NCBI GenBank assembly: GCA_002733715.2
Contig: NVWQ02000011.1
Coordinates: 1-59,412, forward strand
DNA: 59,412 nucleotides
From: Methylophaga sp.
Lineage (GTDB): Bacteria; Pseudomonadota; Gammaproteobacteria; Nitrosococcales; Methylophagaceae
Direction of reading: 5' to 3'
Shown: one piece after another, positions 7,818 through 54,480 of the stretch
Layout of the letters: every line of letters starts with the position of its first letter
How positions within the stretch are numbered: the stretch's first letter is position 1
The notes under the pieces: model-generated
What the model was told of the DNA's origin: nothing
The model's input: only the letters and a program-made list of their open reading frames with translations
Databases searched by the model: none
Translations under genes and position numbers: made by a program

Positions 7818-7967
7818 TATACCCGTTATCATTGAAACTGCAGGTTTTCGCTCCCCCGTCACTCCCGCATGTGGTTAGTGGGAGTCTTGTTTATATTCAG
7901 ATTTCGGCTAAAATTCTGCCGGAATAACGAAGCGGTAAAGACTGCAAATTGATTTCACTTGGGTATA
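7818..7967. repeat. Fold-back intergenic repeat, family 1 (core b)
   Basis: The left terminus TATACCCGTTATCATTGAAA at 7818 and the right terminus ending GGGTATA at 7967 form imperfect terminal inverted repeats like those of the other family members. The interior (CGTCACTCCCGCATGTGGTT and onward) is unlike core a but matches the copy at 47751. The element ends 2 bases before the stop of the chpC-like gene. Confidence 0.75.
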
Positions 7968-20257: not shown

Positions 20258-20296
20258 AAAAAAAGGCTGTGTTCAGTAATGGACACAGCCTTTTTT
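20258..20296 (+). terminator. Intrinsic terminator after the DUF1097 gene
   Basis: The stem AAAAGGCTGTGT pairs with ACACAGCCTTTT around a 10-base loop, ending in a T6 run at 20291-20296. Confidence 0.9.
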
Positions 20297-20303
20297 GTGG
20301 ATA

Positions 20304-20465
20304 TATACCCATAATCATTCAATCTGTAAATTTCAGACCAAAAGCTAGAAAACCAGCCCTTCGTTGCAATGCTTGACAAGGACTAGTCATTACCTGCGCA
20401 TTACGCCTTGCTCTGACTTCCTATTTTTGCCCTGAATCTTCACAGATTGAATGATCACGGGTATA
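20304..20465. repeat. Fold-back intergenic repeat, family 1 (core a)
   Basis: A 162-bp element with terminal inverted repeats: TATACCCATAATCATTCAAT at 20304 against the reverse complement of the right end, TATACCCGTGATCATTCAAT. An inner pair (TTCAGACCAAAAGCTAG near 20332 with its degenerate complement near 20425) makes it a long hairpin. Its core is nearly identical to that at 23285-23446. It ends 3 bases before the gatB stop. Confidence 0.85.
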
Positions 20466-23284: not shown

Positions 23285-23446
23285 TATACCTGTAATCATT
23301 CAAACTGTAAATTTTAGACCAAAAGCTAGAAAGCCAGAGCTGCGTTGCAATGCTTGATAAGGACTAGTCATTACCTGCGCATTACGCCTTGCCCTGACTT
23401 CCTGTTTTTGCCCTAAATTTTCACAGATTGAATGATTACGGGTATA
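23285..23446. repeat. Fold-back intergenic repeat, family 1 (core a), overlapping the argA 3' end
   Basis: The element is 162 bp, the same length as the copy at 20304 and about 90 percent alike by eye (core GCTTGATAAGGACTAGTCAT). The left end TATACCTGTAATCATTCAAA and right end ...GATTACGGGTATA are terminal inverted repeats. The right end overlaps the last codons and stop of argA. Confidence 0.85.
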
Positions 23447-26683: not shown

Positions 26684-26766
26684 TATACTCGTGACCATTC
26701 ACTTTGCAGATTTATAGCCCATCCATTATGTGCTATAAATCTGCAAGTTGAATGGTCACGGGTATA
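26684..26766. repeat. Minimal fold-back repeat, family 1 (arms only)
   Basis: An 83-bp hairpin: the left arm TATACTCGTGACCATTCA... (26684-26717) pairs with the right arm ending GGTCACGGGTATA (26733-26766) over 34 bp with two mismatches. Only about 15 bases lie between the arms, so it is the shortest member of the family. It sits between ilvD and the GGDEF-EAL gene and could also act as a terminator-like or mRNA-end hairpin. Confidence 0.85.
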
Positions 26767-41390: not shown

Positions 41391-41472
41391 TTCGTCATCC
41401 CCGAGATCTTTTATCGGAGATCTTTTCGATACCGTCACAGACTCCCGCTTAAAACCTGCGGGGGTGACGATA
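41391..41472. repeat. REP-like inverted repeat between yebC and ruvC (family 3)
   Basis: The outer ends CGTCATCCCCG (about 41392) and CGGGGGTGACG (about 41459-41469) are inverted repeats with one mismatch, and an inner GAGATCTTTTATCGGAGATC hairpin lies between. This is the common CGTCATcCCCG...CGGGGrTGACG type of proteobacterial palindromic intergenic element. Confidence 0.65.
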
Positions 41473-47750: not shown

Positions 47751-47868
47751 TATAACCATAATCATTCAATCTACAGCGTTTTCGCTCCTCCGTCACTCCC
47801 ACGAGTGGTTAGTGGGTGTCTTGTTTATACTCAGAACCCGGCTAGAAGCCTACTGGGATGACGAAGCT
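47751..47868. repeat. Fold-back intergenic repeat, family 1 (core b), right end degraded
   Basis: The left terminus TATAACCATAATCATTCAAT matches the family end, and the interior (CGTCACTCCCACGAGTGGTT ... GGGATGACGAAGC) follows the copy at 7818-7967 closely. The right terminal repeat GGGTATA is missing, so this copy is truncated. Confidence 0.7.
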
Positions 47869-47914
47869 GTTTTCTAATCGGCTCGGTTGATTAGCCCAAT
47901 TTAAAGGCCCTAAT

Positions 47915-50777: not shown

Positions 50778-51017
50778 TTCAACAATATAAAAATGGTTTA
50801 ACGGTGTTAATAATTCATCATATTGCATAAAGCCATCACATTGTTTGGCAATTTGAGTATGTTGTCAGTGAGAGTTTAATCTAAAACGTAAATAATGGCC
50901 GCGTAGTAAATCACGGGGGGCATATCCTGTTATGGCTGTATCCCATTGTGTGCCGACACTTAAATGATATTCGGCACGTGCAATAAGTAGGCACAATAAA
51001 ATAAAAGGAATCATGAC
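50778..51017 (-). pseudogene. Remnant of a duplicated GDYXXLXY-protein gene
   Basis: About 240 bases closely match the live gene at 52671-53189, including TCATATTGCATAAAGCCATC, AATCTAAAACGTAAATAATG and CACAATAAAATAAAAGGAAT. An internal stretch of about 110 bases (the Cys-rich segment) is deleted, and the reading frame is broken. The match starts 5 bases after the olsF stop and ends at the start-codon region of the parent gene. It is thus an internally deleted, dead copy in the same orientation, separated from the live copy by the LCCL gene. Confidence 0.8.
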
Positions 51018-51069
51018 CTCTATTCATCGTCTGATGGCTCAATTAATGTCATCTAACTTGGATGGTTAT

Positions 51070-51097
51070 ATCTGCAGCTTCAAGCAGTTTGGGTATA
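51070..51097. repeat. Solitary end of a family 1 repeat
   Basis: ATCTGCAGCTTCAAGCAGTT followed by TGGGTATA matches the right terminal repeat of the family, without a visible partner end. The rest of 51018-51213 holds nothing recognisable except the ribosome site of the next gene. Confidence 0.5.
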
Positions 51098-52670: not shown

Positions 52671-53189
52671 TTATTCTTCCTTCGAGGCTTCTTTCAATAA
52701 TTCCTCCAAAGGTCGCCCATCAATCAGCAAATCAACAATTCTTGGTTCGCCTTTTTTGTTGATTGACAGCCTTAAATAAGCTGTATTATCAATTCTGGCC
52801 TGGCGAAGAATATCTTCCGCTAATTTAGCCTGTGTTTCAGCAATATAAAAACGATTTAAAGGTGTTTGTAAGTCATCGTATTGCATAAAACCATCACATT
52901 GTTTTGCAGTATGGGTGTCCACTATTTGTACTTTGGGCGCCTGCTCGCCGATATCTGTTAAACAATAAGAGCAGCTTGTTCTGCCACTACATTCATTCTT
53001 AGTCTCTTGCCAATCATAGGCCAATCTAAAACGTAAATAATGGCCGCGCAGTAAATCACGGGGGTCATAGCCGGTGATGGCGAAATCCCACTGTGCACCA
53101 ACACTTAAATGATATTCGGCACGAGCAATTAACAAGCACAATAAAATAAAAGGAATCATAACAACCATAAATAGTTTTTTATTGTTCAT
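52671..53189 (-). CDS. GDYXXLXY-domain exported protein
   Basis: The 172-residue protein has an N-terminal membrane anchor or signal (MVVMIPFILLCLLIARAEYH) and the GDYXXLXY signature region here reading GYDPRDLLRGHYLRFRLAYD. An insert with four Cys (CSGRTSCSYCLTD plus a later Cys) and a C-terminal LSINKKGEPRIVDLLIDG follow. The family is nearly always next to DUF2157, and the two overlap by one base at 53189. The function is unknown. The Cys-rich insert is exactly the part lost from the dead copy at 50778-51017. Confidence 0.85.
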   Translation of the reverse strand: MNNKKLFMVVMIPFILLCLLIARAEYHLSVGAQWDFAITGYDPRDLLRGHYLRFRLAYDWQETKNECSGRTSCSYCLTDIGEQAPKVQIVDTHTAKQCDGFMQYDDLQTPLNRFYIAETQAKLAEDILRQARIDNTAYLRLSINKKGEPRIVDLLIDGRPLEELLKEASKEE

Positions 53190-54432: not shown

Positions 54433-54480
54433 TATACCCATGATACTTCAATCTGCACGTTTCAATGGGATTTAAAAACG
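54433..54480. repeat. Family 1 repeat end, truncated
   Basis: TATACCCATGATACTTCAAT followed by CTGCACG matches the terminal repeat of family 1. No matching opposite end or core is found before the terminator at 54524, so this copy is a fragment. Confidence 0.55.

Follow-up and report, generated by a model that had tools for sequence, protein, structure and literature searches.

The window analysed in this study, which is contig 4 (59,412 nt) of a Methylophaga sp. genome of 2.83 Mb in 80 contigs, contains several short fold-back repeats with similar ends and different interiors, and it raises the question of what kind of element these repeats are and how they spread. An initial annotation regarded them as a MITE-like or REP-like family mobilised in trans, with swapping of the cores. 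Our data suggest that this genome has very probably been colonised by non-autonomous miniature transposons of the IS630 type (Tc1/mariner superfamily), which have ERIC-type ends and would be mobilised in trans. The ends and positions that had been described were found again with some refinements, and the elements of the window are the following.

1–167: core-A element of the 266–268-bp class, truncated by the contig start, with its right end at 143–167.
7818–7967: core-B element of 150 bp with asymmetric ends; the right end is TATACCCAAGTGAAATCAATTTGCAG.
20304–20465: core-A element of the 162-bp class, without a counterpart at the same place in the sister genomes L057 and L058.
23285–23446: core-A element of the 162-bp class between rppH and argA, with a clean empty site in L057.
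26684–26766: 83-bp hairpin, 3 nt past the stop codon of ilvD, without a counterpart in L057.
41393–41469: pair of core-B hairpins, lacking any end that reaches the threshold, absent from the member list of the initial annotation.
47751–47870: core-B element with a left end; the right end is lost.
51073–51097, minus strand: solo end of the AA type, TATACCCAAACTGCTTGAAGCTGCA, found as an end-pattern match.
54433–54457, plus strand: solo end, TATACCCATGATACTTCAATCTGCA, found as an end-pattern match.

The two cores of the initial annotation are present in the numbers described, core A in three copies (51–139, 20348–20436 and 23329–23417) and core B in two (7844–7936 and 47778–47870). The 162-bp copies at 20304–20465 and 23285–23446 are 91% alike, and whole homologues of the truncated element at 1–167 are found at C63:32712–32979 and C61:76139–76404. 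The right end of the element at 23285 supplies the stop codon of argA (TATACCCGTAA), as was read directly in the sequence. For the element at 26684, whose interior had been described as nearly nothing, the best reading is that it arose from the 163-bp core-C class by internal deletion. The only end-like sequence of the hairpin pair at 41393–41469 is a decayed one to the left (score 7.0, cut-off 9), and the pair may be either a decayed or a free copy of core B. The solo ends at 51073–51097 and 54433–54457 point away from each other, and a composite element bounded by 51097 and 54433 was ruled out because its ends would face outward. A 182-bp direct repeat of 80% identity (50849–51030 and 52994–53175), which is possibly paralogous coding sequence, adjoins the solo end at 51097.

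The shared element end, TATACCC..T.AT..TTCAA..TGCA, is not confined to these few loci. When up to three mismatches were allowed, this 25-base pattern gave 151 matches in the whole genome as against one for the reversed-pattern control, and two more end patterns gave 128 and 56 matches with none in the controls. It indicates that a coherent family is present genome-wide. The 162-bp element at 20304, used as a query, found seven near-full-length copies including itself at 85–100% identity, and a scan of the window with Rfam at gathering thresholds gave no match. The three pattern scans were pooled into 141 distinct ends among the matches listed, and the partner of each was searched with a position weight matrix (score of at least 9, within 420 bp). 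A partner was found for 100 of the 141 listed ends; the other 41 had none of this score within this distance, and 12 of them lie where the sequence stops. Among the ends listed, 65 two-ended elements of 46–359 bp were delimited, in a list that excludes copies truncated by contig edges. Their partner scores are at least 9.7, apart from C22:77557, which was kept despite a weak partner score of 2.7 because its core matches. The 65 listed elements are short, contain no transposase gene and have two inverted ends, which are features of IS630-derived MITEs.

The manner of insertion can be read at several places. At C15:31797–32155 a 213-bp element is nested within another element, and excision of the inner 213 bp, leaving one TA, yields a 148-bp element whose junction aligns with uninterrupted relatives. 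A single TA is common to the abutting ends at four junctions. The sister genomes L057 and L058 are Methylophaga MAGs whose ArgA neighbourhoods are the closest among the named genomes (86% and 81% identity). L057 is without the elements at 20304, 23285 and 26684, with flanks that align at 82–85%. L058 carries a minimal element, not the same one, close to the position of 26684. The empty site for 23285 reads GTC-TA-AGG in L057 and AGC-TA[element]TA-AGA in the window; it is the one empty site at which the TA is readable in both states, the junctions at 20304 and 26684 being blurred by divergence. The proposed check for target-site duplication was thus answered by the nested element, the four shared-TA junctions and this empty site. 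Insertion at TA with duplication of the TA, another feature of IS630-derived MITEs, was found in the cases inspected.

It had also been suggested to look for a transposase with matching ends. We found it in the congener G017, a Methylophaga whose genome has many identical ends at or close to contig edges. One of these ends leads into an IS630 element of 1,111 bp (L207:70–1180, with ends TATACCCGTGATCATTGAAACTGCAG and TATACCCGTAATCCTTCAATTTGCAG). This element is present there in two intact, identical copies, and its left end is the same as that of the window element at 7818 at 25 of 26 bases, so that the ends of the short elements are common with those of an autonomous IS630 element. The transposase of this element matches NF033545 (1.8e-65) and DDE_3 (3.8e-36), and its D-to-E spacing, counted on the translation, is 34. 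The open frame of L207 is called from position 23, which is upstream of the element start, and by reading the first in-frame ATG inside is at 137. The own genome of the window contains IS630 pieces at C44:87–767 and C25:29936–30250, each followed by such an end, and the end at C44 has one difference in 25 bases from the end of the core-A element C63:14040. The C44 piece is a 266-aa open stretch truncated where its contig starts, and the C25 piece is a fragment, so both transposase copies found in the own genome are incomplete. A third match to the IS630 profile in this genome, at C19:44144, scored 22.8 bits, under the cut-off.

As far as sequence allows, the TA duplication and the IS630 elements with the same ends support the view of MITE-like elements mobilised in trans. 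We propose that the DD34E transposase of an autonomous IS630 element would recognise ends of roughly 25 bp, excise the element and insert it at a TA, which would be duplicated. From the comparisons presented here we infer that the IS630 transposase mobilises the elements in trans by cut-and-paste, that it recognises all 25 bp, and that core B was captured.

The distribution of the ends was compared with that of the transposase in 59 genomes. The strict end pattern was found in 11 of 28 congeners, in one of seven other genomes of the family and in none of 23 beyond the family, and the reversed control gave no match in any of the 59. A close transposase piece (best match 61–100% identical) was present in five of the 13 genomes with ends, the own genome included, and in none of the 46 without ends (one-sided Fisher p 2.6e-4, with genomes counted as independent despite their kinship). 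In this 59-genome search, the transposase of this group was not detected in the other eight end-bearing genomes, and five of the 46 end-less genomes have distant IS630 matches of 27–39% identity at best. In a class-wide sample, a transposase match at 1e-25 was obtained in 10 of 369 genomes, including the own genome. Relatives of the transposase also occur on plasmids, in 265 records that come mainly from Salmonella, Vibrio, Klebsiella and Enterobacter. Twelve of these plasmid copies, picked for spread, were examined; the left end was found in 11, the right end in 11 and both in 10, and the remaining two ends are degenerate. The Methylophaga and plasmid transposases are grouped in the tree with support of 81/94, which is under the usual mark. 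IS630 copies at 42–45% identity (L252, L253, L258, L261) have similar ends where these are visible, and those at 32–36% (L254–L257, L259, L260, L262) are mixed, some with partly similar ends, so that such ends are not exclusive to this transposase group. By an ad hoc score, similar ends are absent from five copies at 25–32% identity (L227–L231). IS630 elements with these ends adjoin predicted cfr and erm(42) resistance genes in L263 and L269, on plasmids of E. coli and Salmonella.

One kind of end frames several unrelated, mostly fold-back cores (A–D, and a 46-bp form of ends only), as varied DNA between two such ends seems to be carriable. Core A has two length classes, 162 bp and 266–268 bp. 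Core B is made up of two hairpins. In core C, a 163-bp class is accompanied by shorter forms of 151, 100, 85 and 83 bp, of which the 85-bp copy on C78 is a plain internal deletion, and core D is 138 or 147 bp long (CGTCATTGCGAG...CAATGACG). The element C25:70365 has a core of its own, and two 46-bp elements are hairpins made of the ends alone. An identical 50-bp unit was observed in opposite hairpins of the related elements C50:2010–2228 and C69:8618–8824, inserted in opposite orientation; short units related to it occur in other elements (also C60:1081), and a related 22-base unit (CTTACCTACATYCATGTAGGCA) is found in C63:14040 and C66 (C66:66746).

When 58 elements were split into halves and the half-cores were clustered (average-linkage groups with an ad hoc cut-off), 19 combinations of half-core types were obtained. 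The types A, C, I and K within core B occur in several pairings, and the pairings of core A (B-E or B-F) and of core C (G-H) are fixed. The core-A motif was found in 19 copies, 13 with both ends, five with one end (four of them at contig edges) and one without. One core-B hairpin was found in 37 copies, six with both ends, seven with one and 24 without an end of score at least 9 within 130 bp; since decayed ends fall under the cut-off, 24 is the highest possible count. These counts suggest that core A and its ends move together (18 of 19 copies), while the core-B hairpin seems largely free, and the cores seem to be partly captured. The core swapping proposed earlier is therefore retained in part, as the 19 combinations speak for it, whereas the fixed pairings of cores A and C and the mostly end-less core-B hairpin do not. 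The form of the core-B hairpin, CGTCATYCC...GGRATC, is presumably comparable, by form only, to dRS3-type dispersed palindromes. Core B behaves as a dispersed palindrome independent of other elements to the extent of the end-less copies, again as an upper bound; unlike dRS3-type palindromes, its hairpins here also occupy cores between IS630 ends.

Fold-back structure and intergenic position would also be expected if the repeats were REP/BIME-like palindromes that a RAYT (Y1 transposase) had spread while cores were exchanged between REP units, and the own genome has a single Y1/RAYT-type gene match (C19:62335–62658). We consider this explanation extremely improbable. The two-ended architecture and the TA duplication are not known as the product of a Y1 transposase, which strongly disfavours this explanation, and the element ends match those of IS630 elements. 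Furthermore, the 2-kb Y1 locus gave no blastn-short match above 10 bases (E = 1) to the five element sequences compared, which were taken from outside the window, so a RAYT with matching ends was not supported. Of the earlier interpretation, the MITE-like part is supported as far as sequence allows, and the REP-like part is not supported.

It is also very unlikely, in our opinion, that the cores are selected RNA elements, such as 3'-UTR stabilisers or terminators, and that the shared ends are merely the base of a stem. Six of the seven folded elements are well below their shuffled controls (z −6.4 to −12.8), which would agree with this explanation; the element at 7818 folds slightly better than shuffled sequences (z −2.3, −2.8). 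The gene context was taken from crude ORF calls for 28 elements with long flanks. A stop codon is within 12 nt of 12 of the 28 elements, as an RNA element would have it, and the statement that members always lie close to stop codons is correct within the window; genome-wide it is not, as eight of the 28 elements are between two start sides. Of 30 start sides, 2 are within 12 nt. Some of the 28 elements overlap the end of an ORF, but ORFs longer than 600 nt contain none of them. Such positions are as expected if insertions into genes or close to promoters are selected against. Against the RNA explanation, one end type frames unrelated cores and also a transposase gene, and the elements are absent from a sister genome. 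A terminator-like hairpin beside the 20304 element (20259–20296, between a DUF1097 gene and gatB) is kept in both L057 and L058 without a neighbouring element.

ERIC repeats are used in strain typing. The ends of E. coli ERIC are given as TATACCCGTCATATTTCAAGCTGCAG and TATACCCAAAATAATTCGAGTTGCAG in PMC2759123; in comparison with the IS630 ends of this transposase group, up to 21 and 22 of their 26 bases agree. The seven ends of the window match the left ERIC end at 17–21 and the right ERIC end at 16–20 of 26 bases, and TA termini and fold-back are likewise described in that source. We nevertheless find it highly improbable that these are true ERIC repeats of enterobacterial origin. When complete elements of the window were aligned locally to the 127-nt ERIC sequence, the ends contributed most of the score. 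Three core-A elements, C25:70365 and a core-C example showed no similarity to the ERIC core beyond composition-shuffled sequences (at least 25 of 300 reach the score), and one core-B element gave a marginal match (3 of 300 shuffles). The ERIC core pattern with three mismatches was absent from 369 genomes including the own genome, a sample that, we suspect, holds few enterobacteria. The elements have ERIC-type ends and mostly unlike cores, so they look and probably move like ERIC, yet they are not ERIC.

Like ERIC (IRU, RU-1; MITEEc1, and MITEPlu5 in Photorhabdus), the Methylophaga elements are short, mostly intergenic and fold-back, with TA at both ends and TATACCC termini in which GT-type or AA-type variants are followed by TGCAG. 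They differ in their tested cores, which are mostly unrelated, in having several core types per kind of end, and in the non-enterobacterial host. The ERIC-like MITEPlu5 was related to CCC-type IS630 elements in a Photorhabdus study of 2018 (PMC6267812), and since the ends are ERIC-type, this kind of element is already known. By description in the same study, ISPlu3, ISPlu8 and ISPlu19 share an IS630-family transposase, CCC adjoining the terminal TA and a high-copy MITE relative; unlike those of Photorhabdus, the autonomous element reported here belongs to a Methylophaga genome (G017). In pneumococcus, RUP and IS630-Spn1, as described in a review (PMC2229807), are similar in the short repeat, IS630 ends, TA insertion and proposed movement in trans; RUP differs in its host and is described there as one 107-bp unit. 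This 2007 review noted that transposase-driven movement of such repeats was without experimental support, and the term 'IS630' is absent from the text of a 2024 MITE review (PMC10969869). Our literature search found no work on Methylophaga and IS630, and only unrelated work on Methylophaga and MITEs. What is new here is the host and the mix of cores.

A broader possibility, which we put forward tentatively and hold to be less probable than its opposite, is that the IS630 transposase group with ERIC-type ends acts as a general carrier of hairpins that captures free palindromes. ERIC and the Methylophaga cores A–D would then be separate captures, and the group may be exchanged between bacteria of the sea and of the gut, with plasmids among its vehicles. 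Mobilisation in trans and core capture are directly testable here, because the marine genus is rich in these elements, a congener has two intact copies of the likely partner, and empty sites are available. The end-tied core A, set against the mostly end-less core B, offers a handle on how miniature transposons acquire their interiors.
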